DNA of 64,000 nt from Bryopsis sp. KO-2023 (Eukaryota > Chlorophyta > Ulvophyceae > Bryopsidales > Bryopsidaceae): contig BSYQ01000006.1 of NCBI GenBank assembly GCA_030272585.1, positions 4,117,001 through 4,181,000 of the forward strand, written 5' to 3'. Positions 19,505-54,898 of this stretch are shown piece after piece. Position 1 is the first letter of the stretch; every line of letters begins with the position of its first letter. The position numbers and the translations under genes were made by a program. The notes below the pieces were generated by a model that was given only the letters and a program-made list of their open reading frames with translations, was not told where the DNA came from and searched no databases.

Positions 19505-19521
19505 TGTAACGAATGGACAGA

Positions 19522-19548
19522 TGTAACAGGTGGGGGGAGGTTACAGGG
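19522..19548. other. Filler at the D1 deletion junction
   Basis: A ~24-nt insert that starts TGTAACAGGTGGGGGG and ends AGGTTACA, plus GGG, lies between the truncated integrase and the LTR remnant. It combines a D LTR start, a polypurine-like G run and a GTTACA end. It is identical in the inverted copy. Confidence 0.55.
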
Positions 19549-24871: not shown

Positions 24872-24872
24872 A

Positions 24873-26715: not shown

Positions 26716-27589
26716 CTAGCGCCTCCGGTGACGTCTCTTTTTGGTACACCCCTTTTCGAACTCCGCCACCTTTTCTTCCGCATTTTCCAAGTTCGCTTCC
26801 GGTTCCCATGAATCCTCCGAAACATCATATCCTTTCCATCTTACCAAGTACTGGGTTTGTCCCCTGGATATTCTCTTGTCTAAAATTTGTTCCACCTCAT
26901 ACTCTTCCTCTCCATCCACCAACTCTGGTCCGGGTTGCAGCAGTTGCTTTCTCCCAGGGAATTCATGTGGTTCCTCCTCTTGTGCTGATTTTAGTTTAGA
27001 GATATGGAACGCATTGTGCAACTTCCCAAATGCTTCAGGTAGGTCCAGCCTCACAGTGACGTCCGAAATGCACTCAGAGATGGTGAAAGGCCCACAATAC
27101 TTTGCTGTCAGCTTGCGACTCAACGTTGGTGACAGCTTCAAATCGTGCGTAGAAAGAAAGACTCTATCGCCGGGACAGTAGTGGCCTCCCCGCCGAAGAC
27201 GGTTAGCGGTCCTCCGCTGACGCTCCTGAGCTCGGAAGAGGCAAGCCCGGGCCGCGACGAGGGCGGTAGTCCACGTAGCCCACCAGTCATCGGCAGCAGG
27301 CGAGAGAGTAGGAGCAGCACGATCAATTGGGAGGCTAGGCTGATAGCCATAGACGAGGTAGAAAGGAGAAAATCCGGTAGACTCGTGAATGCTCGAATTA
27401 TAGGCAAACTCCGCAGCAGAAAGGTGTAAATCCCAATCGCATCCAGTAGGCTGCACATAACTCCTTAGCACAGTTTGAACTGTCCGATTAGAACGTTCGG
27501 TTTGGCCATCAGTTTCTGGGTGGTAGGCACTCGACATAGCCAAGGTAGTGCCACAAAGTTGCCATAAGGCTCTCCAAAACGCTCCCGTG
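26716..27589 (-). pseudogene. D2 pol 3' part: integrase core end and chromodomain
   Basis: From AFWRALWQLCGTTLAMSSAY (second half of the DDE core, with E in DGQTERSNR) through the integrase C-terminal domain (GDRVFLSTHDLKLSPTLSRK) to the chromodomain (QYLVRWKGYDVSEDSWEPEA) and a basic end KKRRHRRR. It is separated from the first catalytic half (33263-36609) by element E, inserted between the second Asp and the Glu of the catalytic triad. The frame runs on into E up to 27846, but those residues are LTR-derived. Confidence 0.88.
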
Positions 27590-27870
27590 TGTAACCCCAA
27601 ACCACGTCGCCTCCACCGATTTCGTCGTCCCTGCAGCGGGAGTAGGTGTGTTTGGTAGTAATCGGGAAGGACAAGACTTAGTTGGGCTAGATTGGGTTGA
27701 TCCGGCTTCGAGTAGACCTTGATTTGGATCAAGTACATTTGTGATGGGATGTGGGAAGATATATTGGACGAGTTTATGGACGTTGTGACCTTTTTGCTTT
27801 GGATTGTAAGTCTTCCTTTGGAGTGGGACTGTGGCGTGTGTGACAAGAGCGGTCAAGACGACGTTTTGGG
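27590..27870 (+). repeat. 5' LTR core of element E (281 bp)
   Basis: Starts TGTAACCCCAAACCACGTCG, shared with F and G, and ends GACGACGTTTTGGG directly before the primer binding site. It lacks the AGGTTACA found after the 3' copy. Confidence 0.9.
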
Positions 27871-27882
27871 TGGTTTCGGAGC
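27871..27882 (+). promoter_or_regulatory. Primer binding site of element E
   Basis: TGGTTTCGGAGC with zero spacing from the LTR core. Confidence 0.75.
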
Positions 27883-28000
27883 CAACAAGGAGACTTTTTA
27901 GCTCTCCTGATCCAAGGAAGAAGGCTTGCAACCCTTAGCAAGGGTCGAGACAAGTGCAAGGGAGGTCTTTCCCTAGTGGAAGTGAAGGGAGCACTTGCAG

Positions 28001-28154
28001 GAGTGAAGAGAAGGACCCACAGGGGTATTCGCTCCTCAAAAGAATACAAGAACGAGCTTGAGTCGCTCAAAAGGTTAAAGAGAAGGCGAAGAAGTTCTGT
28101 AGTTTTGGGGATCTGTGTTAGGTTAAGATCTTAACCTAAGGGTTGGTCAGGAGT
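28001..28154 (+). other. E leader block homologous to the G leader
   Basis: GAGTGAAGAGAAGGACCCAC and much of the next ~130 nt match minus strand 54144-54003 of element G. A short frame is conserved in both (KRRTHRG, then YK-EL-SL-R-KRRR). Likely a packaging or dimerisation leader, or a leader ORF; in E the frame stops after about 44 codons. Confidence 0.6.
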
Positions 28155-28194
28155 GCGCTTGCGCCGCTTTTGTCTTGTTTTTCTGTGAGTTGCG

Positions 28195-28542
28195 TGGTGG
28201 CGTTTTCAAAAGAAACGAGAGGCGAGAGTTGGTGCTGTGTAGCTACTGCCGAGGTTTTATAGGTTTTCGTTTCCAGTGGTGTTTCGCAGTAGGAGTGGTA
28301 TTGCCGTTTTGCAAAAGAAGCGAGAAGGCGAGACGGTGCTGTGTAGCGACTGCCGAGGTTTCATGGGTTTTCGTTTGCAGTGGCGTTTTTCGCAGTAGGA
28401 GTGTTGGCTGAGTAGAGATCTGTCGCTGAGAAAGAAGGCGAGAGTCAGTGTTGTGTAGCGACTGCCGAGGTTTTATAGGTTTTCGTTTGCAGTGGCGTTT
28501 TCCGAAGTAGGAGTGTTGACTGAGTAGAGGTCTGTCGCTGGC
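28195..28542 (+). repeat. Three imperfect ~108-bp direct repeats in E
   Basis: Each unit has GGTGCTGTGTAGC(T/G)ACTGCCGAGG (third copy GTGTTGTGTAGCG), then GGTTTTCGTTTGCAGTGG and GCAGTAGGAGTG. Units begin near 28222, 28328 and 28437. Confidence 0.7.
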
Positions 28543-28554
28543 GCGTACAGCAGG

Positions 28555-31528: not shown

Positions 31529-31928
31529 GAAAGAGTGATTGTGGAAGAGCCATGGCAGGTTCCAAGATGAGCCGGTGGTTATAAAAGCAAGCGAGGAGGA
31601 GTCCTCAAGGAAGAGTGATTGTTGAAGAGCCGTGGCAGGTTCCAAGATGAGCCGGTGGCCATAAAAGCAAGCGAGGAGGAGTCTTCAAGGAAGAGTGATT
31701 GTGGAAGAGCCATGGCAGGTTCCAAGATGAGCCGGTGGTTATAAAAGCAAGCGAGGAGGAGTCTTCAAGGAAGAGTGATTGTGGAAGAGCCATGGCAGGT
31801 TCCAAGATGAGCCGGTGGTTATAAAAGCAAGCGAGGAGGAGTCCTCAAGGAAGAGTGATTATGGAAGAGCCGGGGCAGGTTCCAAGACGAGCCGGCGGTT
31901 ATAAAAGCAAGCAAGAAGGAGTATACAA
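31529..31928 (+). repeat. 80-bp tandem array, 5 copies, in element E
   Basis: Units start near 31529, 31609, 31689, 31769 and 31849, period 80 bp. Each contains GGAAGAGTGATT, GCAGGTTCCAAGA and a TATA-like (T)TATAAAAGCAAGC (CATAAAAG in one copy). Outer copies are more diverged. Confidence 0.85.
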
Positions 31929-32950
31929 GAGACGACGCAGTTGTGGTTATGTTTATACAAATCAGACGATGGATTGAGGTACTGTGAAGATATTTTCGCT
32001 GCAGCGTAAATATTAGGTGGAAGTGTCGCTGTTCAGCAGCAAATGATGGAAGTAGCGCCACAGATGTAGTGTCCAGGTGGCAGCTCAGCTCAAAAGAAGC
32101 TTGGAAACCGCGCCACAGACGTGATGTCTGGATGGCTGCAACCTCAGCTTTTGGAGCTTACGAAGAGGAAGAGAGATGATGAAGAGAAAGAGAAAGCGTG
32201 GACAGGAGAGAGTCGCGTAAGAAAGAGGCACAGAGTGTGACCTGATGAAGAGAAAGAGAGACACTGGGTGTGTCCTGACGAAGAGAGAAGAGAGAAGAGA
32301 GAAGAGAAAGAGATATGCATATATGAGAATTGGTGTGCAGACGTGCCACCAGAAGAGAAGATACAAGCGCCGTATCCTGCGTGGTGGCGGCAGCTGAACT
32401 GGAGGTATCCATATGGTGTTGAGAATGGCGAGATCAAAAAAAAAAAAAAAGAATGACAACAATGGTTAGAGAGCCTTCCAAAGGTGTGAACTGGTATGGA
32501 GATTTAAGCGCTTTGGGAAGGGTGACCAACCCTGTAGCAGCTTGTCTTATTTGGGAAGATATGAGTGTGCGGAAAGATTGGTTTTTGGTAATGGAAAGAG
32601 TGGGTATCCTTGTTGAACGAGCGAAGATGCGCTGAGGGCAGAGAACTCTCGAGCAGCATTATTGCGAAAGTAATGAGCGGTATCGATTCGGGGAAGAAAA
32701 AAAAAAAAAAAGAAATTTGAGACAAATAGGATGGTGCATGTGCGTTTGTGGGCCAAATAGAGAGAAACCAGTGTTTGTGGCCGCACTGGAGGAGTCTCTT
32801 AAACGCAGAAGTGCTATTGTGTTTGCTTGAATTAGAAAAAGGTTTAGTTGGTTTCATCGATTTATGTTATATTGGTGACGTTTTTCTTATATTTTGCCTT
32901 TTTGTTTTTGTTAGTGTATTTTCTCCACACTTGGAGGGCCAAGTGTTGGT
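31929..32950 (+). other. Element E 3' internal region, no gene seen
   Basis: Purine-rich GAAGAGAAAGAG repeats near 32160-32320 and A runs at 32438 and 32699. No credible ORF. It ends in the G-rich tract before the 3' LTR. Confidence 0.5.
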
Positions 32951-32953
32951 TAT

Positions 32954-32963
32954 GGGGGGGAAA
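32954..32963 (+). promoter_or_regulatory. Polypurine tract of element E
   Basis: GGGGGGGAAA ends directly before AGGTTACAGC. If plus-strand DNA starts here, the cDNA left end carries AGGTTACAGC ahead of TGTAACC. Confidence 0.6.
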
Positions 32964-32980
32964 AGGTTACAGCTGTAACC
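32964..32980 (+). other. Joined-end palindrome before the E 3' LTR
   Basis: A then GGTTACAGCTGTAACC, a perfect 16-bp palindrome made of a right end (GGTTACA), the spacer GC and a left end (TGTAACC). Confidence 0.8.
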
Positions 32981-33262
32981 CCAAACCACGTCGCCTCCAC
33001 CGATTTCGTCGTCCCTGCAGCGGGAGTAGGTGTGTTTGGTAGTAATCGGGAAGGACAAGACTTAGTTGGGCTAGATTGGGTTGATCCGGCTTCGAGTAGA
33101 CCTTGATTTGGATCAAGTACATTTGTGATGGGATGTGGGAAGATATATTGGACGAGTTTATGGACGTTGTGACCTTTTTGCTTTGGATTGTAAGTCTTCC
33201 TTTGGAGTGGGACTGTGGCGTGTGTGACAAGAGCGGTCAAGACGACGTTTTGGGAGGTTACA
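32974..33262 (+). repeat. 3' LTR of element E (281-bp core plus AGGTTACA)
   Basis: The core matches 27590-27870. The final 8 nt AGGTTACA (33255-33262) are absent from the 5' LTR and equal 32964-32971. The target duplication CCCGTG follows. Confidence 0.9.
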
Positions 33263-36200
33263 CCCGTGAACCGTGCATCTCTGTCAGAAGTGATGCTACA
33301 AGGTATGCCATGGAGCCGCACTATGTGGTCAAAGAAAAGTCGTGCCACCTCGGCTGCTGTGACAGTTTGCTGTGTGGGGATCAGATGTAGCATTTTGCTA
33401 AAGCGATCTACCACCACCAGGAGATAATTATGGCCTGCAGCAGTGGTGGGTAATGGACCCACGAAGTCTAACGCCACGTCTTGCCAACGTTCATCTGGAA
33501 CAGGAAGAGGTTGCAACAAACCCATCGGTTTTTGAGTAGAGGGTTTATTGCGTTGACAAGCCAAACAAGTAGCCACATACCGCTGCACACTTGCCGATAC
33601 TTTGGGCCAGAAGTAGTGTTGCTGCACCCGAAAAAGGGTACGGCGACGCCCAAAATGTCCAGCTAAGGCAGAGTCATGACACTCCTGTAAAACGGTTGCT
33701 TGCATACTCCTGGGTATCCACCATTTCCAGGTTCCAGCGACGTGCCGCCACAACCGGACTCCATCCCACCGCACATGCGGTGGCTTGTGTGCTGCAACAA
33801 TTAAAGTGTTGCAAAGCGGGTCCTCCATATATGCGTTCTTCACCTTTTCCTGGAAGACGGTAGCACCTGCTACTGTGGCAAAGAGCTCCTCCTTTCGGAC
33901 CTTTTGGTGTGTGGCACGGCTTAGCGCGTCGGCTACTACATTCTCCTTTCCTGGACGATACTTAATTTCGTATTTAAACTCCTGCAACACCTCCATCCAG
34001 CGAGCTTGGCGCTTGGAAAGATTTGGTTGTGTCTGTAGATAACGCAATGGCGCGTGATCAGTATAGATCACAAACTCCTGAGCATCGAGGTAATGTCGCC
34101 AAGTCCTCAAAGCATGGATTATAGCAAGAAGCTCCTTTTCATGGGTAGCATAGTTTAATTCCGCGGGATTAAGTTTCCGGCTTTCATAGGCCACAGGTTG
34201 TTGTCCATGTCCTTGATCTTGGGTAAGCACCGCTCCTACTGCATGGTCGGAGGCATCGGTGGTCACCTCAAATTTGAGCGCTGGATTAGGAATCAACAAG
34301 ACTGGTGCGTTGGCGAGGGCCTCCTTCAAACTCGCCATTGCAGTAGTCGCAGCCTCATCCCACTTCCACTCTGTGCTTTGTTTGAGTAAATGGGTCAAGG
34401 GCTGAGCTATGGCAGAAAAGCCTTTGATAAAACGGCGGTAGTAATTAGCTAGGCCCAAAAACGATCGGAGCTCCTTTAATGTTTGAGGTTCAGGCCACTC
34501 CCGAATCACCTGGATCTTTTCCTGTAATACTCCAACTCCCAAAGCACTGATCTCATGTCCGAGGAACTCCACCTTGGTATTGCCAATCTCACACTTCTTG
34601 TTAGAAACATAGAGTTTCTGCTCCCGTAGCACCTGGAAGATTTTCCGTAGATGCCCTTTGTGTTCCCGCCAACTCCGACTGTAAACTAGTATGTCATCCA
34701 AATAGACAACACAGAAAACGTCCAAATACTCGTGCAACACATGGTGCATAGTATTCATGAACGTGGCAGGAGCGTTTGTGAGCCCAAAGGGTAGCACCAC
34801 GTACTCGTAGAGTCCATAGCGCGTGCGGAATGCCGTTTTCTCACAATCTTCAGGCTCGAGACGTACTTGGTGGTAACCAGAACAAAGGTCAATCTTACTG
34901 AAGACCTTACACCCTTGTACCTGGTCCATGAGGTCCTCTATCCTTGGGATGGGGTAGCGATTTTTAATAGTGAGTTTGTTTAGGGCTCTATAATCGACGC
35001 ACATCCTTAGCTTGCCATTCTTCTTGGGAACAAAAATCACCGGTGCTCCCCATGGCGACTTGCTGGGTTGAATGAAGCCTTGTTCAAGCAACTCAACGAG
35101 TTGCTTCTTCAGTTCTTTCTGCTCCGTGATGCTGAGTCGATACAACCCTTTCTTCTGCGGGACGGCCCCTTCCACTAACTCTATCTTATGACGTACGCCT
35201 CGGTCCGGGGGTAGCTCGCTTGGTAACTCATCCCGAAATAATTCGCCAAACTCACTCCTAATTTGCTGCTCCAATCGTTGTGATTCCTCTTTCTTTTCCA
35301 GGCATTTAGGAGCTCCTGCTAGTAGGTTATCCTCTTTTGCTGCAAACACTTGGACTAAGAAAGCAGGCTCTCCTTTTCTTATTACTGCCCGCATTTGTAA
35401 TGCTGACAGCAACTCCGGTCCTTCTTGCTGCAACTCGGGGTCACAGCGTCGCATTTTTAGGCGGTGTCGGCACCCATTTTGTAGAAGGGTGACCATCTTT
35501 CTTTTCCAATCAATGACGGGGTTATGTTGCTGCAACCAGGTCATTCCTAGGATAAGGTCATAGTTGCCCATGGTGATCTCATGTAGCACCTCCACGGAGG
35601 TAAACTGCCCTAGTGAGACCGTAGCTTCCAGCTGGCGACTGCTACATTCCGCAGTCTCTCCGTCAGCAAGAAGTACTTTCGTGGGATGCTGCGACTCGCT
35701 TGGGGTCACTTGGTTTTTAACCAACCATTCTTTGGATATGAAGTTGTTCGAGGCTCCAGAGTCGATCAGTATTTTGGCTTCTTTACCATCCACTGTTCCC
35801 ACAGTCACCAACATCCCTTTTTCAGCATTGGTGGCATTCCCTAGCCTCATAGGTCTGACAGGTTCCAGGCCTCCTTGAGAACCCCTAGTACAAAACTTCT
35901 CCATCACCTCCAGTGTCCATCCACTTCCAAATATTGTGGGTTCCTGTTGGATACTCCCATTGGAAAAATTTCCTAGTTCCTCTCGTGGAACCACACATAC
36001 ATCAGGCTCCTCTTGGGTCTGCCTGCTACTGCTATCAACAGGCTCCTCTTGGGTCCGCCTGCTACTGCTATCAACAGGCTCCTCTTGGGGCTCCTCTTGG
36101 GTCTGCCTGCTACTGCTATCAACAGGCTCCTCTTGGGTCCGCCTGCTACTGCTATCAACAGGCTCCTCTTGGGTCCGCCTGCTACTGCTATCAACAGGCT

Positions 36201-40790: not shown

Positions 40791-40925
40791 TGTAACAGGT
40801 TGTAGCGAATCAGAAAGGCTACATCATGTCAAATCATATCTTGTCAAACTTAGATGTTCTGAGTGACAGCTAGCATCACTAGCTAGCTAGCTGCTGGATG
40901 CTAGTTGTCAAACCCACAGCACGAG
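40791..40925 (+). repeat. D3/D4 shared LTR, left part, split by G
   Basis: First 135 bp of the 222-bp LTR, ending with the target sequence CACGAG (40920-40925). The remaining 87 bp follow at 54905. Confidence 0.9.
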
Positions 40926-41547
40926 TGTAACCACAAATTGCGTCGTCCTGACCGCTGGGGTCACCCCTGCAGCGGGAGTAACGGTTGCAGAGTCGTTCTT
41001 TGCAGAAATGGAACGGAAGAAGTGGGGACAGCCCCTTTAAACGAAGCACTTGGGCACCCTCTCACAAGAAATGGGTAAACACGAGACCACACTCTTTCCA
41101 AAGATCTTACAAAGACCTCGAACCCAAAGAATACAACAGAAGAAGCAAAAGTCAGAAGTCCCTCCAATACCCTAAGATCAGCCACTTAAATAGGCTCTAG
41201 ACTGACTCATCCCTGTCCCATTGATCGTCCATGATCCTAATCCCCGAGTAGACAACCCAAGCTATCCCCGAGTAGACAACCCAAGCTATCAAACCCATCT
41301 GATCCTTCAAAAGTATCCCTAGTCTATTCATACAGCACCACTTCCTAGGACTGTCCAACCTAGTCACAGCTGTAGCCAAATTGCTACCCCTAAACTGTGG
41401 CGGAACTGCCATGGCAGAACTGTCCCGGGGTGACTGCTAGCCCTACGTAATCCGTCCGGGACTGCCTCAAGCAGCATTCCCTCCCCTGATATCACTCTAG
41501 CCCTGGAGGTGACAAAATTGGTCGAGGCGACGTGGTTTGGGGTTACA
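40926..41547 (-). repeat. 3' LTR of element G (615-bp core plus GGTTACA)
   Basis: Minus strand TGTAACCCCAAACCACGTCG...GACGCAATTTGT, then GGTTACA at 40932-40926. It includes a 24-bp direct repeat CCCCGAGTAGACAACCCAAG at about 41243-41290. Confidence 0.9.
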
Positions 41548-41558
41548 GCTGTAACCAC
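41541..41558 (-). other. Joined-end palindrome before the G 3' LTR
   Basis: Minus strand GTGGTTACAGCTGTAACC. GTGGTTACA equals the last 9 nt of the element at its far end. Confidence 0.8.
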
Positions 41559-41570: not shown

Positions 41571-41630
41571 TTGACTTTTGTCCCCAAAAGTTAAACTCAA
41601 CCTCCCCCACTGAACTTCTTCTGTCCCTGG

Positions 41631-42188
41631 TGTAACCCCAAACCACGTCGCCGCCACCAATTTCGTCACCTCCACAGGAGGAGTGCTGCCACAGAACTGG
41701 GACTGTGGCAGCAGTGCAGAAAGGACTGTGGTGAAGGAGCAGTCCTGCCACAGCAAGACGGACGTTGTACGGGTTTTATGTTTTCTTTTATTCATTTTTG
41801 ATCCATTTTTGATCCATCCAAGTTGATGCAAAGGGGTGAAATGATGGGTGAATGAACCAAAGGTGGAGAGAGAGTAGGGGAGGTGTAGTCAAGATTAGTA
41901 AGGATGAGAACGGAATCCAGGGTAGCTAGGGTGTAGTTATGGGGAGTTTAGCGGGAAGCTATCGGGACCCTCTTTGGAAGGAGTGATTGGGGTTTAAAAG
42001 GGAGAGACCAAACGTTCTCATTGTAAGCTTGTTTTTGCTTGAGTTTTCTATCTTGTGTCTTCACACTTCTTGCCGTTTTCTTCCTACCAAAGAGCTTAAG
42101 CTCTCCCCCGTTTTATCCTTCTATTCTCCAAGCGTGGTGGTAACACCACTGTGGCGGGTGTGACGAAATCGGTGGCGACTACCCCGTT
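41631..42188 (+). repeat. 5' LTR core of element F (558 bp)
   Basis: Starts TGTAACCCCAAACCACGTCG. The end region GGTGTGACGAAATCGGTGGCG is an imperfect inverted repeat of the start region CGCCGCCACCAATTTCGTCA. Ends GACTACCCCGTT next to the primer binding site. Confidence 0.9.
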
Positions 42189-42200
42189 TGGTTTCGGAGC
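42189..42200 (+). promoter_or_regulatory. Primer binding site of element F
   Basis: TGGTTTCGGAGC with zero spacing from the LTR core. Confidence 0.75.
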
Positions 42201-42485
42201 TAGGACAACATTGATCCCGACGATCCGACCGGAGCCCGCCGACTTCGTGAGCAATTGGGATTACCCGAGTCTCATTTCGAGCATTTCAAGTCACTTCTTC
42301 GGCAAACGCGACGACGGTTAGGTGTGCTAACAAGTTCAAGCTCAAACTCAAGCTCGTGCGCTTCATTCCATTCCGTTGAGTCTCAGGTTGGAACCACTCC
42401 AAGCGCTACCGGAGCGCCTTCGGCCTCAACACCTTCTGCCGCAGGAACTCCTGCCACAGTACTTCCAACTGTAGTGGGAACAAGG

Positions 42486-44417
42486 ATGGTGGTGACCAAT
42501 ACAAGGAAGCAGCCATGTTTGGACAAATTTGATGGCGAATATGGGACGAAAGCCGCCAACTGGCTCGATCATGCACAAAGCACAAAAAGCTTGTGTAGTT
42601 GGTCCGCTGAAGAAATGGGACAAGAGTTGTTGAAGGCGATGAGAGGGAATGCGCTTTCGTGGCATCAAGCATGGATGGCCGACCGAGGTGGTACTTTTGA
42701 TGGTGCGACATGGGCGGCTTGGAGAACTGCATTTCAAACGCGTTTTGGATTATCTCAAGTGGATCTACTTCACCAGTTGCACAACTGCCGCCAAATGGCC
42801 GGAGAGCCAGTGATGACTTACCGGGATCGGCTACAGAGCTTGTTCCGCCAACTCACAACGGCACCTCACGCCGCAGAACAGGTCCAGTACTTCATCCAAG
42901 GAATACGCCAGGATTTTCGCCCATGGCTTTGCGTTCAGGCCTTCGCCAACCTCGAGGCTGTGGCGCAACGTGCGGCGGAGATGGAAATGTGGGCCCTTCG
43001 AGACGCGGGCCAGATCACACCGGCGGCACTCGCAATGCCAAGTATTGCCACCATGACCCCGCTTTTTGGACCGCCGCCACAGGCGTCGACAAGTGCAACA
43101 CCCCTGTTCACTCCACCGGCAACAATGCCGACACCCGAAAAACCAAATGCATCTACAGGATGGGAGGAACGTCTCCGTTTATTGGAGAAGCAACTCGCAG
43201 AGGTGACAAAAGATGTGCAAATGGCAGAAGCAGATGTTCTCGTGGGTGATAGGATGCAGGTCGATCAACGATCCCGACGGCCGATGAATCGAAGACCTTG
43301 GACTCCTTCAAGTGGTACCAGTGCCGCTACATCACCAATTGTCTTCAGTCCGGAAGGACTGTTGCGACAAGTGGTACAAATGCGTCTTCACGATTTATTC
43401 CGTTGGTCTCCCAAATTAAAAGAAGAATTTCTGAAGCGGATGACGACACCGGCACACATGGCAGAGCCGACATTTGACAACGGAGTACAAGACCTGATGG
43501 ATGAAATCAATACGAACATCATGGAGCAACCTGCCGTTTTGGCCATGCCGGAAGATGATTCTGCCCCCGAGTTCTTCCCTACTGTGGCGACTATGACACC
43601 GGAGCCAAAGAAGAAGAACACACGACTGACATGGGTGACTTGGGTTTCGACACTTTTGACCCTTGTTGTCGGTTTCGGATATTGGATTGGACAACAGTGG
43701 AATGCAAGTATTTCCACTATCGACGTGATGAATTGCGGAGCAAGAGCGACCCCCGCGATTGTGCAAATTCAAGGGATAAAGATTGGAGGAACTGCTGAGA
43801 AGGGCATTGTGGATACCGGTGCTGGTGTAACACTTCTCGCCACCAAAGCCGCAGAAAGGGCAGGAATTTTGCATCTCATACAGCCGTCAAAAGTGTGTTT
43901 CAGGACGGCCAACGGCAAACTCGCCGCTGCTCGTGGCGTTATTCCCGATTTTCCCGTGAAAGTTGGAGGAGCAACACATATGGTGGACATTCATGTTTCG
44001 GACACAGTGCCATACGCCATCCTTCTCGGGGTGGATTGGTTGCAGAAGGCTGAGGCGATCATTGATCTCGGCTTATCAGTCTTGCGATACAAAACATCAC
44101 AAGATGAATGGGGAGAAGTTCCGCTCCTCTCTGGAAAGCAGCAGAAACGAGTGCGGTTTACGGAAGGACTACCACAGCGGAAGAGCACCACGGAGGCAGC
44201 CAAATCAGGACGTATCCCGGCACACACAAGAGCGGCGGTGCCGGTACGTTTCCCGTCGGGACAAGTGGCCCAATGTCATTTGTTCAATCCGACGAATGCG
44301 GAGATTACCATCATCGCGGGCAACAATCTCGACAACCGCCTCCGTACACATGACGGCCGTGCCTTGCGCAAATTGAGTCCCGCCAGTGGCATTCCCGCCA
44401 CTGGCCAGTGCGTTTGA
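42486..44417 (+). CDS. F gag-protease with a predicted membrane helix and no zinc knuckle
   Basis: The frame is open from 42204 (just after the primer binding site), but the first ATG is at 42486 (MVVTNTRKQPCLDKFDGEYG), so a non-AUG start upstream is possible. Gag domain at about residues 10-165 (WRTAFQTRFGLSQVDLLHQL, MTYRDRLQSLFRQLTT). No CCHC motif is found anywhere, unlike gag of B, C, D and G. At about residues 380-405 a hydrophobic stretch, TWVTWVSTLLTLVVGFGYWI, looks like a transmembrane helix. The retropepsin follows near residue 440 (GIVDTGAGVTLLATKAAERA, later AILLGVDWL). Pol lies +1 relative to this frame and overlaps its end by 41 nt. Confidence 0.85.
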   Translation: MVVTNTRKQPCLDKFDGEYGTKAANWLDHAQSTKSLCSWSAEEMGQELLKAMRGNALSWHQAWMADRGGTFDGATWAAWRTAFQTRFGLSQVDLLHQLHNCRQMAGEPVMTYRDRLQSLFRQLTTAPHAAEQVQYFIQGIRQDFRPWLCVQAFANLEAVAQRAAEMEMWALRDAGQITPAALAMPSIATMTPLFGPPPQASTSATPLFTPPATMPTPEKPNASTGWEERLRLLEKQLAEVTKDVQMAEADVLVGDRMQVDQRSRRPMNRRPWTPSSGTSAATSPIVFSPEGLLRQVVQMRLHDLFRWSPKLKEEFLKRMTTPAHMAEPTFDNGVQDLMDEINTNIMEQPAVLAMPEDDSAPEFFPTVATMTPEPKKKNTRLTWVTWVSTLLTLVVGFGYWIGQQWNASISTIDVMNCGARATPAIVQIQGIKIGGTAEKGIVDTGAGVTLLATKAAERAGILHLIQPSKVCFRTANGKLAAARGVIPDFPVKVGGATHMVDIHVSDTVPYAILLGVDWLQKAEAIIDLGLSVLRYKTSQDEWGEVPLLSGKQQKRVRFTEGLPQRKSTTEAAKSGRIPAHTRAAVPVRFPSGQVAQCHLFNPTNAEITIIAGNNLDNRLRTHDGRALRKLSPASGIPATGQCV

Positions 44418-46023
44418 AACGCTCGTCAACAACCTTGGTGGCACTACAGCGGGTGCCCTACTGCCGCCAAGGAAAGAACAACGTGGGGCTGAGGTGGAAA
44501 CGAAAGGAAATACATTGGCGAAACTTCCACAAAAATTGGAGAAGGACTTCCATTGGAGCACTGGTGCACGTCAAGTCTTGGAAGACACACGGACAGCAGA
44601 AGAAAAGGTTCGTACCATTCCTCTTGGCGATCAATTGTCTTCGGCTCGTATATGGGGTTTGCGGAAGGTATTGCGGCAATACTTCTCACGGTTTGCTTGG
44701 ACGTTGAAAGAGACGACTGCGACTACTGCCACAACACATGAAGTGGATACCGGAGATCATCCCCCTATCCACCAACGGGGCCGTTACTTTTCGCAAAAGG
44801 AACATGAAGTGGCGGAAAGAGAAGTGGCGGATCTTTTGGACACCGGACTCATCCGCCGCAGCCAGAGTCCCTGGGCAGCACCGGTGGTACTAGTCCCGAA
44901 ACCCGATGGTCGTTTGCGATTCTGCATCGACTATCGCCGCCTGAATGCCATCACGCGGAGAGATCAGTACCCAATTCCCCGTGTCGACGAGGCCATTGAC
45001 CAACTCCGCCATGCCCGCTGGTTCTCGTCTTTGGATTTGAAGGCCGGATATTGGCAAGTGCCACTCTCCGCAGATGCCGCCGCCAAGAGTGCGTTTCGAG
45101 TCCGCTCCGGACTGTACGAATGGACACGGATGCCAATGGGGATGTGCAACAGCGGGAATACATTCCAGCGATTGGTGGACTCTATTCTCGGAGATTTGCT
45201 GTGGCAAGGTGTGTTGGTATATATTGATGACATCATCATATATGCCTCAACGTTCCAAGAACACCTTCGGTTGCTAACGGAAGTACTTCGACGTTTGGAA
45301 GAAGCAAACATGCGAGTTTCGCCGACTAAATCCATTTTCGGGACACAACACGTGGAGTATTTGGGACATGAAATCTTCAAGGGTCAAGTAGCGCCGTTAC
45401 AACGACACATCACGGCAGTGGAGAAACTACAACCACCAGAGTCTGTGGCAGAAGTGCGCCATTTCCTTGGTTTGACGGGATTCTATCGGCGTTTCATCCC
45501 CCGTTTCGCTGAACTCGCACGACCCTTGTACGAGTTATTGAAGAAAGCTGCCAGGTGGACTTGGACCAATGCCGCAGACCAAGCTTTCCGGACCCTCCAG
45601 AAGTTGTTAATCCAACGGCCGATCCTTACCCTTCCCGACTTCCGCCGTCCGTTCATTCTCACGACCGATTGGTCTGCCCACGCCGGAGCCGCCATTCTTT
45701 CTCAACCATATCCCGAAGGAGAGAGAGTCGTTGCATATGCATCGATCAAGATGTCTGGACCACAAATACATTGGAGTAGTGTTGAGGGGGAATGCTTCAC
45801 CGTACTCTGGGCTATTGAGAAGTTCCGTCCATATTTGCACGGCGTCCGTTTCGAGGTAAAAACCGACCACCGAGCCCTCGTGTGGTTACTAACGGCGAAG
45901 GATCTCGGCAGCAAGTTACTTCGATGGAGTCTCCGTCTGCAAGAGTACGATTTCTTCGTAACATACCAGTCCGGCGCGAAGCATCGACATATCGATGCCC
46001 TTTCACGCCTGCGGCGGAAGTGA
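44377..46023 (+). CDS. F pol: reverse transcriptase and RNase H only
   Basis: Open from 44377 with no ATG before the RT active-site region, so it is probably made by +1 frameshift (or -2) from gag-protease near GTT TGA (44412-44417). RT fingers/palm (SPWAAPVVLVPKPDGRLRFC, YPIPRVDEAIDQL), catalytic YIDD (VLVYIDDIIIYA), thumb (FLGLTGFYRRFIPRF). RNase H starts at TTDWSAHAGAAILS, has VEGECFTVLWAIEKF and TDHRALVWLL, and ends with HRHIDALSRLRRK and a stop. Gypsy pol normally continues into integrase here; the stop is at the natural RNase H end and the LTR follows 0.25 kb later, so integrase is absent rather than mutated. Confidence 0.9.
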   Translation, partial: VPPVAFPPLASAFETLVNNLGGTTAGALLPPRKEQRGAEVETKGNTLAKLPQKLEKDFHWSTGARQVLEDTRTAEEKVRTIPLGDQLSSARIWGLRKVLRQYFSRFAWTLKETTATTATTHEVDTGDHPPIHQRGRYFSQKEHEVAEREVADLLDTGLIRRSQSPWAAPVVLVPKPDGRLRFCIDYRRLNAITRRDQYPIPRVDEAIDQLRHARWFSSLDLKAGYWQVPLSADAAAKSAFRVRSGLYEWTRMPMGMCNSGNTFQRLVDSILGDLLWQGVLVYIDDIIIYASTFQEHLRLLTEVLRRLEEANMRVSPTKSIFGTQHVEYLGHEIFKGQVAPLQRHITAVEKLQPPESVAEVRHFLGLTGFYRRFIPRFAELARPLYELLKKAARWTWTNAADQAFRTLQKLLIQRPILTLPDFRRPFILTTDWSAHAGAAILSQPYPEGERVVAYASIKMSGPQIHWSSVEGECFTVLWAIEKFRPYLHGVRFEVKTDHRALVWLLTAKDLGSKLLRWSLRLQEYDFFVTYQSGAKHRHIDALSRLRRK

Positions 46024-46272: not shown

Positions 46273-46292
46273 ACGGGTTACAGCTGTAACCC
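46273..46292 (+). other. Joined-end palindrome before the F 3' LTR
   Basis: AC then GGGTTACAGCTGTAACCC, a perfect 18-bp palindrome. ACGGGTTACA is repeated as the last 10 nt of the element. Confidence 0.82.
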
Positions 46293-46852
46293 CAAACCAC
46301 GTCGCCGCCACCAATTTCGTCACCTCCACAGGAGGAGTGCTGCCACAGAACTGGGACTGTGGCAGCAGTGCAGAAAGGACTGTGGTGAAGGAGCAGTCCT
46401 GCCACAGCAAGACGGACGTTGTACGGGTTTTATGTTTTCTTTTATTCATTTTTGATCCATTTTTGATCCATCCAAGTTGATGCAAAGGGGTGAAATGATG
46501 GGTGAATGAACCAAAGGTGGAGAGAGAGTAGGGGAGGTGTAGTCAAGATTAGTAAGGATGAGAACGGAATCCAGGGTAGCTAGGGTGTAGTTATGGGGAG
46601 TTTAGCGGGAAGCTATCGGGACCCTCTTTGGAAGGAGTGATTGGGGTTTAAAAGGGAGAGACCAAACGTTCTCATTGTAAGCTTGTTTTTGCTTGAGTTT
46701 TCTATCTTGTGTCTTCACACTTCTTGCCGTTTTCTTCCTACCAAAGAGCTTAAGCTCTCCCCCGTTTTATCCTTCTATTCTCCAAGCGTGGTGGTAACAC
46801 CACTGTGGCGGGTGTGACGAAATCGGTGGCGACTACCCCGTTACGGGTTACA
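46285..46852 (+). repeat. 3' LTR of element F (558-bp core plus ACGGGTTACA)
   Basis: Core matches 41631-42188. The final 10 nt are not in the 5' LTR. The target duplication CCCTGG follows. Confidence 0.9.
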
Positions 46853-46858
46853 CCCTGG

Positions 46859-48237: not shown

Positions 48238-50253
48238 TCATGGACGAAGCGCTGTGGAACCACTGACTATTGGATGGTCCAGCGGAACTGGAAGCCTTGT
48301 CAGTGCATCCGCATTTGCGTTACTCTTCCCAGCGCGGAACTCAATCGTAAAATCAAACTCTTGTAGGCGGAGTGCCCACCTCATCAGTTTCCCCGTCAGT
48401 TTGGTACCCGTCATCAACCATTGTAAGGCTCTTTGATCAGTCTGCAGCACAAATTCCGTTCCGTAGATGTATGGCCGAAATAAGGTGCAAGCCCACACCA
48501 CTGCTAGGCACTCCCCTTCCACTGCAGAATAATTCCTCTCAGCAGGATTGAGTCTTTTGCTGGCATAAGCCACCACATGCTCTCTCCCTTGCTCATCCTT
48601 TTGACAGAGTACTGCCCCCACAGCCTGGCTGCTCCAGTCTGTTTGCAGAATGTATGGTAGGTGTGGCTGTGGTGGAGCCAGGACTGGTTGATCGGTAATG
48701 CTTTTCTTCAGCCTCTCAAATGCTTGTTGGTGGCGTTCCCTCCATTCAAATGGCACATCCTTCTTCAACAACTCCGTCAGAGGTGCAGCGATCCTTGCAT
48801 AGTCGCGCACAAATCTCCTGTAGTAAGAAGTAAGGCCAAGGAAGGACCGCAGAGTAGACACATCCACCGGTGGCTCCTGCATCTCCACTGTGGCTACCTT
48901 CTTCGGGTTCATTTTGATTTCCCCTTTCCCCACGATGTGGCCCAAGTACAGCAGCTCCTCAAACCCGAAGTCCGATTTCCTCGGGCTGATCCTCAGGTTG
49001 GCCTCCTTCAACCGCTGCAGCACTTCTGCCAGGATCTCCTGATGCTTTTCCCAGGTCTCCGCATAGATGATAATGTCATCCAGGTACACGATCACCCCCT
49101 TCCACAGCATGGGTCCCAGTACCTCGTTCATCATCCTTTGGAAGGTCGCTGGGGCGTTACTGAGCCCGAAGGGCATCACTACGAACTCATACAGCCCCTC
49201 CTGGGTGATGAAGGCCGTTTTCTCCGCGGAGGCGGTGCTCATTCTGACCTGCCAATACCCCGATCGCAGATCGAGTGCCGTGAAATACTTCGCCTCCGAG
49301 AACTGATTGATTGCATCCTCAATCCTTGGGAGGGGGAAGCTATCCCGGGTGGTCACCTTGTTGAGCTTGCGGTAATCGACGCAGAACCGCACCGATCCAT
49401 CTGGCTTTGGGACTAGGACGATCGGTGAGGCCCATGGGGACTTCGACTTCCGCACCACTCCGTCCAGGAGCATCCTCGCCACCTCCGATTTCACCACCTG
49501 GTTCTCCGCAAAGCTGAACCGGTAGGGATTCTGCCTGATGGGGGAATGATCTCCGGTGGGGATCTCGTGGTATAGGATGTTGGTTTGCCCGACTTGATCC
49601 GAGGACCAAGCACAGGCATCCGGGTATTGCTGCAGAAGATCCAGCAGCTCTTTTTTTTGGTGGGGGGTAAGATGGGGACTAATTTTCAGTTCTTCCAATT
49701 TTTCTCTAAGTGACACCTTTTTCTCCTTTCTTTCCTTTTCTGTGGCAAACGTTTTATTTTCTACATCAGAAGTCCCAAGGGGAACCACCCCTGCCCAAAT
49801 CTGGTTTTCCTGCAGCTGAACTGCTGTCTGTCCCATTTCCTTCAACCCAAACTTTTCTTTTCTTCTTCCTTTTTCTTTCTTTTCTCTTCCCAATTCTTTT
49901 TCAGCTGCTTCCCCTTCCCTTGAATTTTCCCTTCTTTTCTTTTCTTCTTCCCCTTTTATCTCTTGTCTCACCAGAATTTCTGCTTCCACTGTTTTACTAT
50001 GGTTCAAACACTGCATGGCCCATGAGTCTGGCCACAGACTTCTGGCCCTTTCTACCTCTTGTGTTTGGCGTTGCATTCTCTCTTCCTGCTCCTTGATCCT
50101 CCTGCCTGCTCGACGCCACTGTTCTCGCCTACCCGCACGTTTGCCCCTCCTCCTTCTCCTCTTTCCCCTTTTATTTCTCCTCTCAGGACCGACCCACTCT
50201 CGCCACCCCTTCAGGTGTCGCCGAAGGAGGACGTCGGTGGCCGGCCCACTCAA
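48238..50253 (-). CDS. G pol: reverse transcriptase and RNase H only (671 aa)
   Basis: The frame follows gag-protease by -1 shift at a T5 run touching the gag stop. A Lys/Glu/Arg-rich linker spans about residues 15-190. RT follows: SPWASPIVLVPKPDGSVRFC, catalytic YLDD (VIVYLDDIIIYA), FLGLTSYYRRFVRDYARI. RNase H: TDWSSQAVGAVLCQ, VEGECLAVVWACTLF, TDQRALQWLM. It ends NANADALTRL plus ~17 residues, with no integrase. First in-frame ATG is ~60 residues in. Closest in this window to F pol, but clearly a different lineage. Confidence 0.9.
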   Translation of the reverse strand: MSGPATDVLLRRHLKGWREWVGPERRNKRGKRRRRRGKRAGRREQWRRAGRRIKEQEERMQRQTQEVERARSLWPDSWAMQCLNHSKTVEAEILVRQEIKGEEEKKRRENSREGEAAEKELGREKKEKGRRKEKFGLKEMGQTAVQLQENQIWAGVVPLGTSDVENKTFATEKERKEKKVSLREKLEELKISPHLTPHQKKELLDLLQQYPDACAWSSDQVGQTNILYHEIPTGDHSPIRQNPYRFSFAENQVVKSEVARMLLDGVVRKSKSPWASPIVLVPKPDGSVRFCVDYRKLNKVTTRDSFPLPRIEDAINQFSEAKYFTALDLRSGYWQVRMSTASAEKTAFITQEGLYEFVVMPFGLSNAPATFQRMMNEVLGPMLWKGVIVYLDDIIIYAETWEKHQEILAEVLQRLKEANLRISPRKSDFGFEELLYLGHIVGKGEIKMNPKKVATVEMQEPPVDVSTLRSFLGLTSYYRRFVRDYARIAAPLTELLKKDVPFEWRERHQQAFERLKKSITDQPVLAPPQPHLPYILQTDWSSQAVGAVLCQKDEQGREHVVAYASKRLNPAERNYSAVEGECLAVVWACTLFRPYIYGTEFVLQTDQRALQWLMTGTKLTGKLMRWALRLQEFDFTIEFRAGKSNANADALTRLPVPLDHPIVSGSTALRP

Positions 50254-50256
50254 AAA
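50250..50256 (-). promoter_or_regulatory. T-run frameshift site at the end of G gag-protease
   Basis: Gag is read GAT TTT TGA. A -1 slip on the five-T run gives TTT TTG AGT, the pol frame. Not a classical heptamer, so confidence is moderate. Confidence 0.4.
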
Positions 50257-53200
50257 TCCGAAGTGGTATAGCTTATCACCTCACTCCCTCCTTTCCCTCC
50301 GGTTGCGGCCGTTGCTGCTGGCACTCCTGCTGCAGGCACTCCTTTCGGTCTCCATGCTTGTGCACTCTCCCGGAAGTAATCCAAAAGCTTTTTGAGCTCC
50401 TCCTTTTCTTGTTGTTTCAGTGCCTCCCGCCTCCGCATGTATTCCTCTGTTACACCATTCCTTCTCCCCTGTTTTCCTTCCCTTCGCAGTGTTTCCTCCA
50501 AACTCCCTTCGTTCTCTTTTTGTATTTTCAAATGGTGCCCTCTTCTTGCATCCAGTAACTCCATCTCTTGCTGGTGGAGGTGTGAGGCTGCTGCCTCACT
50601 CATCCCGTTCTCCCGACGCATGGTGTAGCACTCTTGCAGCACCCTTGCTTGGTAGTATGTAAGCCGGAGGGTCGGTGGATGTCGACTGGCGGCGTTGGGC
50701 TGGTTCAGACCATCATGAGTCGTCCTTGAGTTTGGCTGCAAAAGTTCCCCGGTAGAAGGGGGTGGTTGTGCTGGTGCAGGACTGGGTTCTTCGATGTGGC
50801 GGAGGGTCTGGTAGACAGAGACGACTGCAGCCGTTGCAGGCGTTACAGAGTGGATGAACTCGATCGGCACGCCACCCATGCGCTGTCCCGCCACGTATGG
50901 AGTGAGCTTTTTGAGCCCGTAGTCAATCTCGGTGCCGGTTTTAGCCAACCATGGAGTCCCAATGATTAGGGACAAATGCTTGTTCTCCACTACATGGCAC
51001 GGTACCATTTGTTTGCATTGTCCAAGGGCAATGGGTAGAGCGGGGATGTACCCTACTGCCTGCCGAGTCTCTCCATTGCAGTCCCGGTAACGCCCTCTTG
51101 GTTCCTCCATAAGGTGTGCTAACCCCGTTTGTGTTAGGAGTTTTTTGGATATCACACAGGCACTCGCTCCGGTGTCAATGATCGCTCCTGGCACTTTGGT
51201 TTCCATCACTTTGGCTGTGGCTGTAGTAACTGCATATGAGCTTGTCTTGTCCACTTCTGCCATGGTGGTAACTGCTGGGACTTTCGCCATAGGCACCCGT
51301 AATGCCTTCAACCATGCGTCGATCAACTCCGGGTGGTGCTGACAAAGGTTTGCTACCGATACTTCTGCAGTTAGTCCTTCCACAAGCTTCTTGGCTTCCG
51401 CTGTAGTAAACATGCGCTTCTCCTGTGGCTTCACTGTTGATTTCTTGACCATCTTCTTCTTCTTTGCCATGGTATTTCTGGGCGATGGTACTTGCATCGG
51501 TCTATGCATCAATGGCGGCATCACAACTGGCTTGGATCCTTGTGGCACATCTTCTGGCTTCGGCAATCGCTTTGGAATCTCTTCTGGCTCTTTCTTTGAT
51601 TCAAGGTTTGGCTGCTCTTTCAGTTCCTCCATTACAACATCTTCTGCAGTAGTTGCTTGCGGTTCTGAGGGTATTGGGCTCGTATCCACAGGAGTCCCTC
51701 CATTGCTTCCTTGGGCACTGTCCATTGCTCCATTGTCGACATCCATAGCAGAGTACAAGATTGATGCCATGACTTCCTCTGGTTCCTTCATGGCTGCTGT
51801 CACTGGGTCGGTCTGCTCGAAATCCATAATCAACTGATCTTCCAGTTCTGCTTGGAAACTCTGCATTCGGTTGGGACAATTTCTTCTGTAATGTCCAAGG
51901 TCTAAGCAATGCCAACACGTGACTTCGCTCATGTCTATCCTTCCACTCCTTCTCCTCCATTCATTTCCTCTGTTCCTTCCCCGGCCTCTTTCTCCATTGG
52001 TAAGTATTCCATTCGCTCCAGCGTCTTCAGTAATGCCATGGCTCACCCCTGCCAGCTCGGGTTCTTCCGATTGTCGCATATCTGCTACCCTTTCTGTCAA
52101 GGCGGAGATCATCCTCCTGAGTTCGCTATACTGCCGCCCAGATATTCTCACTTGCTGCTCCACTCCTCGAAGTCTTGAATCCGTCACAATTTTGTGATCA
52201 CGCATTTCCTTCCTTAGGCTGTCAATTTGCCCATTTACTCTCCGATCCATAACGCCCACTTCTGCCAAAACAGGCTCCAATGCTGCATGCTCCTGCAGTT
52301 CTCCCATCAGTTCGGTTGCTGGGACCGTCACTTCCTTCTGGGTGGAACTGGGGTCCACTTGTCTCTTCTCAACTTGTCTGGCTCTGGCACTGACTCCCTC
52401 CAAAGTATCCTCCATGGGTGCATGAAGTATGGGTGTCAACTCCCCCTGAGCTCCGTCCTTGTTCAATCGAAGTAAGGACCCATCTGCCACGGCTGGATTG
52501 CCTGGTACTCTGTTCGCTTCCACTTGCTGTTGCCCTTGGGATGGCACAGATGTATACTCGTCCACTGTTTCATCACCCTTCCGGCTTTGCTCCAAGGTAT
52601 GGGCTACTGGTGTTGCTGGGGCAACTCCAAACCAGGCCAGCATGTCCGTTTGCAACTTCTGCCACGTCCTCAATGGGTTTGGCACTCCTTCCACAAGGGC
52701 TGGATGTCTGGATATCCAATTGTCAACCCATGACCGAGCCTCCCTGGTTGTATAGCGGACCAGTCTCTCTATCCTCTCGTCTTCGTGTGGCTGCACTGCT
52801 GGGGGTACGTTCCAGCCAGAGCCTTCAGCGAGGATCCCATAGGAACGTAACCTGGTGGCCACATCTTCTGCCTCTGCACCCGTAAATGCGGGTAAATGAC
52901 TGTTAGTCAACCGATTAGGAAGTCCTTCTGCTGGATGTATCATGGCGCCGCCACTGCCTGGAGTCGGTGGACAAACTGGTGGTGGAACAGGAGGTCTTGG
53001 TGGAACGGATGGAACAACTGGACCAGGTGGCACAATTGGAGGAATCTGGGGGAGACTGGCAGCAAAGGCAAATGGGTTCAGTGGTGGATGTACTGGGGGC
53101 ACAGGCTCTTCCTCGAAACTAGAGGATGTCTCCCTCTTGTCTCTTTCCCCTTCAGGTTTGTCTTCGTCGGAACTGGAACTCGAGGGCTCGTTGGTAGCGC

Positions 53201-53789
53201 CTCCATTTCCTCCGTTCCCTGCAGCAACACTGCTCTCTTCTTCCTCTTCTTGTTTGACTTCTTCCTTAACCACAACTTCTGGCTCAACAAAGGCTTCCTC
53301 CTCTTCTTTGGTCACTCGTCTTGCTTCGTCTTCTTCTTTTACTTCTTCCGCAAGCACTTCTTCCTCCTCTTGGACAACCTCGGCTTCTCCTTGGTCAGTA
53401 ACGCCAACGAGGTTTCCTTCTTGTACCTCCCTTCCAGTGGGGTCAACACTTGCTTGCTCTTCTTCTTCTTTAACGACAGCAACCACTTCGTCGTCTACCT
53501 CTGCCCTCGTAACCTCGTCTCCAGCAGCTCTGTCTTCTTGTCTTGCTTCACGTTCTTCAGGAACACTCTCGACCATCACAACCTCTTTCTCGTCAACCTC
53601 GTTCACTTCCTCGTTGTCCCAGCCGCCAAGAAAGTCTTCCTTCAACACCCCTTCGTCGTCAACAAGACCAGCCTCAGAAAAAGCACCAACACTTCCTTGT
53701 GCCTCAGAAACCTCAACGTTCACTCCTTCTGCACCACCAAGGCCTTCTTCCTCGTTTGGTTCTTCTTCCTCGTTCACTTTTTCCGTCAA
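50250..53789 (-). CDS. G gag-protease polyprotein (~1179 aa)
   Basis: The frame is open from about 53809 without an early ATG; the first is near 53576 (MVESVPEEREARQEDRAAGD), so a frameshift from the leader ORF or a non-AUG start is possible. The N-terminal ~240 residues are extremely Glu-rich. A Pro-rich region and gag domain follow (SHLPAFTGAEAEDVATRLRS, WQKLQTDMLAWFGVAPATPV). One zinc knuckle, CWHCLDLGHYRRNC, lies near residue 625. Retropepsin near 870 (GAIIDTGASACVISKKLL, LIIGTPWLAKTGTEIDYG). The C-terminal ~200 residues are charged and helical. The gag domain match is weak; knuckle and protease are clear. Confidence 0.85.
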   Translation of the reverse strand: MTEKVNEEEEPNEEEGLGGAEGVNVEVSEAQGSVGAFSEAGLVDDEGVLKEDFLGGWDNEEVNEVDEKEVVMVESVPEEREARQEDRAAGDEVTRAEVDDEVVAVVKEEEEQASVDPTGREVQEGNLVGVTDQGEAEVVQEEEEVLAEEVKEEDEARRVTKEEEEAFVEPEVVVKEEVKQEEEEESSVAAGNGGNGGATNEPSSSSSDEDKPEGERDKRETSSSFEEEPVPPVHPPLNPFAFAASLPQIPPIVPPGPVVPSVPPRPPVPPPVCPPTPGSGGAMIHPAEGLPNRLTNSHLPAFTGAEAEDVATRLRSYGILAEGSGWNVPPAVQPHEDERIERLVRYTTREARSWVDNWISRHPALVEGVPNPLRTWQKLQTDMLAWFGVAPATPVAHTLEQSRKGDETVDEYTSVPSQGQQQVEANRVPGNPAVADGSLLRLNKDGAQGELTPILHAPMEDTLEGVSARARQVEKRQVDPSSTQKEVTVPATELMGELQEHAALEPVLAEVGVMDRRVNGQIDSLRKEMRDHKIVTDSRLRGVEQQVRISGRQYSELRRMISALTERVADMRQSEEPELAGVSHGITEDAGANGILTNGERGRGRNRGNEWRRRSGRIDMSEVTCWHCLDLGHYRRNCPNRMQSFQAELEDQLIMDFEQTDPVTAAMKEPEEVMASILYSAMDVDNGAMDSAQGSNGGTPVDTSPIPSEPQATTAEDVVMEELKEQPNLESKKEPEEIPKRLPKPEDVPQGSKPVVMPPLMHRPMQVPSPRNTMAKKKKMVKKSTVKPQEKRMFTTAEAKKLVEGLTAEVSVANLCQHHPELIDAWLKALRVPMAKVPAVTTMAEVDKTSSYAVTTATAKVMETKVPGAIIDTGASACVISKKLLTQTGLAHLMEEPRGRYRDCNGETRQAVGYIPALPIALGQCKQMVPCHVVENKHLSLIIGTPWLAKTGTEIDYGLKKLTPYVAGQRMGGVPIEFIHSVTPATAAVVSVYQTLRHIEEPSPAPAQPPPSTGELLQPNSRTTHDGLNQPNAASRHPPTLRLTYYQARVLQECYTMRRENGMSEAAASHLHQQEMELLDARRGHHLKIQKENEGSLEETLRREGKQGRRNGVTEEYMRRREALKQQEKEELKKLLDYFRESAQAWRPKGVPAAGVPAATAATGGKGGSEVISYTTSDF

Positions 53790-54283: not shown

Positions 54284-54898
54284 ACAAATTGCGTCGTCCT
54301 GACCGCTGGGGTCACCCCTGCAGCGGGAGTAACGGTTGCAGAGTCGTTCTTTGCAGAAATGGAACGGAAGAAGTGGGGACAGCCCCTTTAAACGAAGCAC
54401 TTGGGCACCCTCTCACAAGAAATGGGTAAACACGAGACCACACTCTTTCCAAAGATCTTACAAAGACCTCGAACCCAAAGAATACAACAGAAGAAGCAAA
54501 AGTCAGAAGTCCCTCCAATACCCTAAGATCAGCCACTTAAATAGGCTCTAGACTGACTCATCCCTGTCCCATTGATCGTCCATGATCCTAATCCCCGAGT
54601 AGACAACCCAAGCTATCCCCGAGTAGACAACCCAAGCTATCAAACCCATCTGATCCTTCAAAAGTATCCCTAGTCTATTCATACAGCACCACTTCCTAGG
54701 ACTGTCCAACCTAGTCACAGCTGTAGCCAAATTGCTACCCCTAAACTGTGGCGGAACTGCCATGGCAGAACTGTCCCGGGGTGACTGCTAGCCCTACGTA
54801 ATCCGTCCGGGACTGCCTCAAGCAGCATTCCCTCCCCTGATATCACTCTAGCCCTGGAGGTGACAAAATTGGTCGAGGCGACGTGGTTTGGGGTTACA
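54284..54898 (-). repeat. 5' LTR core of element G (615 bp)
   Basis: Same length and apparently the same sequence as 40933-41547. The left end TGTAACCCC is at 54898 and the target duplication CACGAG is at 54899-54904. Confidence 0.9.

Follow-up and report, generated by a model that had tools for sequence, protein, structure and literature searches.

Retrotransposons of four LTR families in the 91-Mb genome (28 contigs) of the green alga Bryopsis sp. KO-2023 carry, beyond the end of their 3′ LTR, a copy of the short string that stands just before that LTR. We consider it highly probable that the ends of their cDNA are joined and then cut by a DDE-type enzyme acting in trans, so that this string, hereafter X, goes to the right end. 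The anatomy is seen in the window, by which we mean the whole stretch of 64 000 nucleotides analysed here (C6 4117001-4181000), which contains retrotransposons nested within one another. Element E (27590-33262, + strand) is inserted into a Ty3-like element, of which an uninterrupted copy lies at 19549-20059; F (41631-46852, + strand) is inserted into G, and G (54898-40926, minus strand) into an LTR of the Ty3-like family A. In all three the 5′ LTR directly abuts the primer binding site (PBS), TGGTTTCGGAGC, a motif that also adjoins the LTRs of other, canonical families here, and the 3′ LTR carries X as additional nucleotides at its end: AGGTTACA in E, ACGGGTTACA in F and GGTTACA in G. An identical X precedes each element's own 3′ LTR, with GC between the two, and GGTTACA-GC-TGTAACC is a perfect palindrome. 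The features of E are as follows.

27584..27589, no strand: left target duplication, CCCGTG, with the identical 6 bp at 33263-33268
27590..27870, + strand: 5′ LTR, ending TTTTGGG, without CA and without GGTTACA
27871..27883, + strand: primer binding site, TGGTTTCGGAGCC, a motif common to other LTR families here
32954..32963, + strand: polypurine tract, GGGGGGGAAA, before X, as read from the sequence
32964..32971, + strand: first copy of X, AGGTTACA, then GC, then the 3′ LTR
32965..32980, no strand: 16-nt perfect palindrome GGTTACA-GC-TGTAACC
32974..33254, + strand: 3′ LTR core
33255..33262, + strand: second copy of X, AGGTTACA, the right end of E
33263..33268, no strand: right target duplication, CCCGTG

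Judging from where X starts, the plus strand of E probably begins at the end of the polypurine tract, and the palindrome at 32965-32980 would be the cut site once the ends are joined. Inside E there is also an array of direct repeats with 80-bp units (31527-31926). F and G have a comparable layout.

41631..42188, + strand: 5′ LTR of F, ending CCCCGTT at the primer binding site (42189)
42255..44417, + strand: gag-protease open reading frame (ORF) of F, protease by Pfam
44386..46023, + strand: reverse transcriptase-RNase H ORF of F, by Pfam, integrase absent downstream
46273..46282, + strand: first copy of X in F, ACGGGTTACA
46285..46842, + strand: 3′ LTR core of F
46843..46852, + strand: second copy of X in F, ACGGGTTACA
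46853-46858 and 41625-41630: target duplication of F, CCCTGG
54284..54898, minus strand: 5′ LTR of G, ending ATTTGT at the primer binding site
50250..53789, minus strand: gag-protease ORF of G, protease by Pfam
48238..50253, minus strand: reverse transcriptase-RNase H ORF of G
41550..41556, minus strand (41556-41550): first copy of X in G, GGTTACA
40933..41547, minus strand: 3′ LTR core of G
40926..40932, minus strand (40932-40926): second copy of X in G, GGTTACA
Both sides of G: target duplication, CTCGTG

No stop-to-stop frame longer than 138 aa follows the reverse transcriptase of G in 46859-48237. Family A has LTRs at 24872-25094 and 40791-40925, each preceded by a polypurine tract; the former also has a PBS after it, like tandem arrays with one common LTR, and the latter contains the G insertion. 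Adjacent to family A pol, a 41-bp mini-unit with TGTAAC...GTTACA ends occurs twice (19505-19545 and 60319-60359).

The original prediction, made from the window, was that the 8 nt following the 3′ LTR of E are the nucleotides preceding it and that F and G behave likewise, three matches in three elements. This holds for E (AGGTTACA at 33255-33262 and 32964-32971) and for F (ACGGGTTACA at 46273-46282 and 46843-46852). G does have GGTTACA at both sites, but this is only the string shared by the families and is uninformative alone, so that all three elements match and only E, with one extra nucleotide, and F, with three, are informative.

Genome-wide, the 16-nt palindrome occurs at 123 sites, compared to 0 for its reversed control. 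The pattern [ACGT]GGTTACA-NN-TGTAACCCC retrieved 118 oriented joints (92 + 26), the spacer being GC in 117 of them. Three palindromes (C5:491413, C3:7938251 and C5:3886194), one of which reads TTTGAGGTTACAGC, are missing from the list of those followed by CC and perhaps represent more families with the same end design. Sequence was obtained for 104 of the 118 joints, and the right-end counts given below rest on these. According to the sequence preceding X they sort into four LTR families, E, F, G (which comprises two subfamilies, G1 and G2) and a fourth one, H, found beyond the window; two joints of an H copy that has undergone rearrangement fall outside this sorting. The four families have one end sequence in common, and their 22-nt left end is present in 220 exact genomic copies. 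On C1-C6, among the 100 of these 220 that were listed, left ends form a few tight clusters per contig, which may correspond to centromeres or to safe havens of another kind; on C2 (8.8 Mb) there are two, about 12.6 kb apart.

The right end could be read in 95 of the 104 joints, and every one consists of the LTR core, as defined by the 5′ LTR, followed by 0-3 nt and GGTTACA. Since the search demanded GGTTACA, ends without it could sit only among the nine unmatched joints. Four of these are tandem E or G elements in which a PBS follows an LTR common to both (C1:296042, C3:713529, C6:4709046 and C7:2402158), one is an E truncated by another, one is a G copy with a right end that is probably situated outside the stretch examined, and three belong to L025, the rearranged H copy. 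Comparison of each right end with the nucleotides before its own 3′ LTR, the check that had been proposed together with the prediction, gave an exact suffix of the pre-LTR string in 88 of the 95 cases; in the other seven, the border nucleotide is absent upstream of X. The many non-matching full-length copies that would have spoken against the prediction were thus not encountered. If only the informative right ends are considered, i.e. those with nucleotides beyond GGTTACA, 25 out of 32 match, and much of the weakness of a case built on three elements is thereby removed.

The families contribute unequally to this result. In E, GGTTACA is preceded by A in five of seven copies, by AA in one and by GA in one. 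In F, the single copy with ACG in its pre-LTR string has ACG at its right end and the three sequenced copies with ATG have ATG; a pattern search found four ATG right ends genome-wide, the fourth belonging to an unsequenced joint. G and H together provide 84 of the 95 right ends and carry mainly the shared GGTTACA: extra nucleotides are lacking in 52 of 72 G copies (T in 14 others, A, C, G or GT in six) and in 11 of 12 H copies (T in the remaining one). E and F supply most of the proof of copying, and G and H mainly attest to the presence of X. When the 11 right ends of E and F were compared with the pre-LTR strings of other families as a swap control, there were 0 matches.

Minus-strand synthesis begins at the PBS, and standard reverse transcription cannot pass on anything to the right of U5, that is, of the LTR core. 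That ordinary reverse transcription could not add X was part of the original prediction. Across the whole genome, an exact-pattern search for GGTTACA up to 8 nt ahead of the PBS, the other place where contrary cases had been anticipated, gave 0 matches. One might still suppose that nothing is regenerated, the right-end X being inherited from the parent element and GGTTACA being kept at both sites by selection for the integration enzyme. GGTTACA is indeed found in 95/95 right ends and selection may well act on it, but standard reverse transcription, with its minus strand starting at the PBS, has no means of transmitting such a sequence, F would require two matching mutations, and variation at the border of LTR and X recurs in both G subfamilies; we regard inheritance as very improbable. 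Another primer, with TGTAACC at its 5′ end, could start the minus strand and remain as the right end, which would put X there directly. However, TGGTTTCGGAGC follows immediately on the LTR core and is the motif found beside the LTRs of canonical families, and such a primer would have to differ between families in step with X. An unusual primer was consequently rejected, the PBS motif being the same as in canonical families, and its likelihood is in our opinion negligible.

Additional bases at the LTR/X border are found in 13 of 42 G1 copies and 7 of 30 G2 copies. Of 111 columns examined in G2, the border is the sole one with indels; in G1, indels affect four further columns in 10-13 of the 42 copies, about like the border, so that only G2 presents a clean hot spot and G1 alone proves little. 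The border departs from its modal form 23 times; in 16 cases bases found upstream of X are repeated, and in 7 they are not. When a single base is added in G, it is T in 14 of 19 cases (binomial p ~1e-5 vs 1/4). This T, which is also the first base of the PBS, could have been left behind by the tRNA primer or come from upstream of X, and for the single H copy with T a tRNA leftover fits better than X. Altogether, these border extras resemble the scar that would be left by the joining of slightly ragged ends. L025:7926-9422 is the H copy rearranged by LTR-LTR and inverted joins. At two breaks other sequence is linked, in one case through 4 nt of filler, to a piece beginning exactly GGTTACAGC-TGTAACC; on the right the copy runs no further than the LTR core, plus or minus one T, and lacks X there. 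The ends seen at this single locus are those that the joining model predicts for cDNA before joining.

The reverse transcriptase could itself bring the ends together by jumping, when plus-strand synthesis ends, from the right end of a cDNA onto the left end of that cDNA or of a different one; this would be a variant of the joined-ends explanation and not an alternative to it, the joined molecule being a product of reverse transcription and not of ligation. The 7 untemplated extensions out of 23 fit terminal additions made before a jump, and fit end joining equally. No rule of microhomology emerges: the PBS and X share GGTT, but the borders of E (A) and of F (ACG/ATG) were formed without use of it, and we hold a jump to be rather unlikely. 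The data support joined ends, as far as sequence can tell, and would fit a circle or a concatemer, made by a ligase or by template jumping of the reverse transcriptase.

All copies examined are integrated copies. A 6-bp target duplication is present in 10/10 copies for which both flanks were available, and the right flanks are distinct in 95/95; this indicates that both ends, X included, were present at insertion. Integrated joints of the form LTR core-X-GC-LTR were looked for in the E, G and H types, and none appeared among the first 100 of 111 entries. Of the exact left ends, 70 of 220 listed, 68 are in a 3′ joint or in a 5′ LTR followed by a PBS and two in neither. In a rival route the cDNA would never be inserted on its own but would recombine into solo LTR units, each with GGTTACA and a target duplication, that were mobilised earlier as DNA transposons. 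An LTR with X is a unit bounded by terminal inverted repeats (TIRs), and the tandem joints (4/104) suggest that LTR recombination does occur; but solo units are few (the two among the 70 left ends listed), the 95 flanks are all distinct, and the match of X to the pre-LTR string is not predicted. Homologous recombination into solo LTRs was rejected for the scarcity of solo units, and we find this route hardly credible.

The model that we propose is drawn from sequence-based observations, namely the anatomy of the elements, the match of X, the border variation, the raw ends of L025, the 6-bp duplications and the absence of integrase by Pfam; from these we infer joining before insertion, the stagger and an enzyme acting in trans. 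The right integration site of E-H would not be encoded in the U5 end. The linear cDNA would have X-GC-TGTAACC... at its left end, the plus strand being initiated immediately behind the polypurine tract that precedes X, and its right end would stop at the LTR core by the PBS, without the CA required for insertion. Joining of the ends, in a circle or a head-to-tail concatemer, would give LTR core - X - GC - TGTAACC and thereby make GGTTACA-GC-TGTAACC a functional palindromic double end. A DDE-type integrase or transposase acting in trans would cut each strand after CA; the staggered cut would leave 2-nt 5′ overhangs, as on a processed retroviral end, GC would be dropped, and the element would insert with a 6-bp target duplication. 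At every cycle X would relocate from the pre-3′LTR site to the right end, and joining seems to be an obligatory step, there being no right site without it. The comparison of copies, the ACG/ATG tag of F, the border extras and the ends of L025 all agree with the predicted sequence of joining and then cutting on either side of GC. Two other parts of the original prediction stand in modified form. It proposed a circular or concatenated precursor, of which the joined ends are supported, circle and concatemer giving the same picture; and it opposed this precursor to the linear one, which holds for un-joined cDNA, but the species that inserts after the cut may itself be linear.

The prediction was silent on the lack of a recognisable integrase in these families, in view of which the cutting enzyme would act in trans. 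Pfam identifies protease and reverse transcriptase (RT)-RNase H domains in F and G and protease and RT in H; no integrase or recombinase domain was found in the ORFs of F, G and H or in six E ORFs (Pfam, E up to 0.001), and neither a tyrosine recombinase nor an own DDE transposase had a Pfam match in the tested frames of E-H. The six E ORFs have zero Pfam matches of any kind; E is non-coding and without RT. The RT-RNase H of F and G is of gypsy type, which assigns them to Ty3/gypsy (Metaviridae) by this character; identical 5′ and 3′ LTR ends with CA at the U5 end, another character of that group, are not found in E-H. In an RT tree of 43 rows, F, G and five database proteins lie on one side of a branch with support of 98/94. 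These five end at most 66 residues after RNase H, and 21 of 35 others examined do so too, which makes the relatives weak evidence for an old integrase-less clade. The RT of H (L028:5505-7007) gave two weak matches among 7,993 candidates scored and is extremely divergent: its identity with those of F and G is 22-28% over 194-197 aa, and it forms a very long branch of unsure placement. The H protease is 31-32% identical to the G and F proteases. The tree is compatible with F, G and H sharing one origin relative to A and B.

Concerning the source of the enzyme, family A is unsupported as a donor, having only 11 LTR-PBS places (≤1 mismatch) and an LTR that, by eye, is unlike those of E-H apart from TGTAAC. 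A search with PF13683 (rve_3) gave at least 62 matches (150 of 252 candidates scored), many of them in frames of 490-495 aa scattered over the genome (e.g. C1:2741357, C3:2653568 and C6:4012441), a family that is possibly a stand-alone DDE enzyme or a split pol. Only one of 35 matches on C1-C6 lies within 10 kb of the left ends listed (100 of 220), 2.9 kb outside a G copy. No stand-alone transposase with the TIR of E-H was found in that search (150 of 252 candidates scored, ends unread), and the 490-495-aa frame and IS3EU/GingerRoot-like transposases are to be taken as leads, not results. The GACGAC motif is absent from the 66 nt read in the families ending TTTGTTACA at the PBS (L098 and L099). 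A broader reading, on which we are evenly divided, is that of a guild of retrotransposons with very distant RTs (gypsy-type in F and G, extremely divergent in H, none in the non-coding E) that share an end module working only once the cDNA ends are joined and that are inserted by a foreign DDE enzyme like an IS3-type minicircle, the joining being obligatory.

Abutted LTR ends had been proposed as the integration substrate of retroviruses and were set aside in favour of linear DNA. The biochemistry of foamy virus and HIV-1 reopened the question, and X is a natural tag that records the route, informatively in 32 of 95 insertions, so that the matter can be addressed in genomic copies and in new insertions. 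It suggests how a retrotransposon can manage without its own integrase, and ties together LTR elements, DIRS-type elements and circle-forming insertion sequences. Among the papers surveyed by title and opening of the abstract, most subscription papers lying outside, we found none describing LTR elements that take their right end from the sequence preceding the 3′ LTR; a prior description is possible. The canonical families A and B of the window share the PBS motif with E-H and the gypsy-type RT-RNase H with F and G, but they encode integrase, and their CA lies at 0-2 nt from the PBS; the target duplication of the integrase-bearing B, with its CA near the PBS, is 5 bp (by eye).

Outside LTR elements, IS3-type junctions have a similar build, with inverted ends that abut across a short spacer, and the original prediction had drawn this comparison of geometry. 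Ngaro and DIRS elements are not known to make a target duplication. E-H differ from them by 6-bp target duplications, TG..CA ends and the lack of a tyrosine recombinase by Pfam, and F and G also by a Ty3/gypsy-type RT and an aspartic protease. The repeat order is nevertheless the same: the Ngaro group of DIRS tyrosine-recombinase retrotransposons is described as A1-[ORFs]-B1A2B2 (PMC8547959), to be compared with LTR-[ORFs]-X-LTR-X in E-H. For DIRS-1, a circular intermediate was proposed as the integrating form and detected (PMC5633606). IS3EU and GingerRoot make 6-bp target site duplications (TSDs), with occasional TG..CA ends in GingerRoot (PMC10045372); E-H agree with the criterion of 6-bp TSDs with TA..TA or TG..CA ends, but those are DNA transposons encoding their own transposase, and E-H have none by Pfam. 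As for retroviruses, linear DNA is argued to be the main substrate of HIV and 2-LTR circles a possible back-up for integration (PMC4372172), whereas the right site of E-H would be nonexistent until joining and integrase was not found in them. HIV-1 integrase can cleave its own LTR-LTR junction in vitro (PMC1905944), and that of foamy virus cleaves its own palindromic LTR-LTR junction with the loss of two nucleotides (PMC1180852). The cut proposed for E-H, in a palindromic junction and after CA on both strands, is of the same kind, and the two nucleotides lost in foamy virus would have their counterpart in the GC of E-H.
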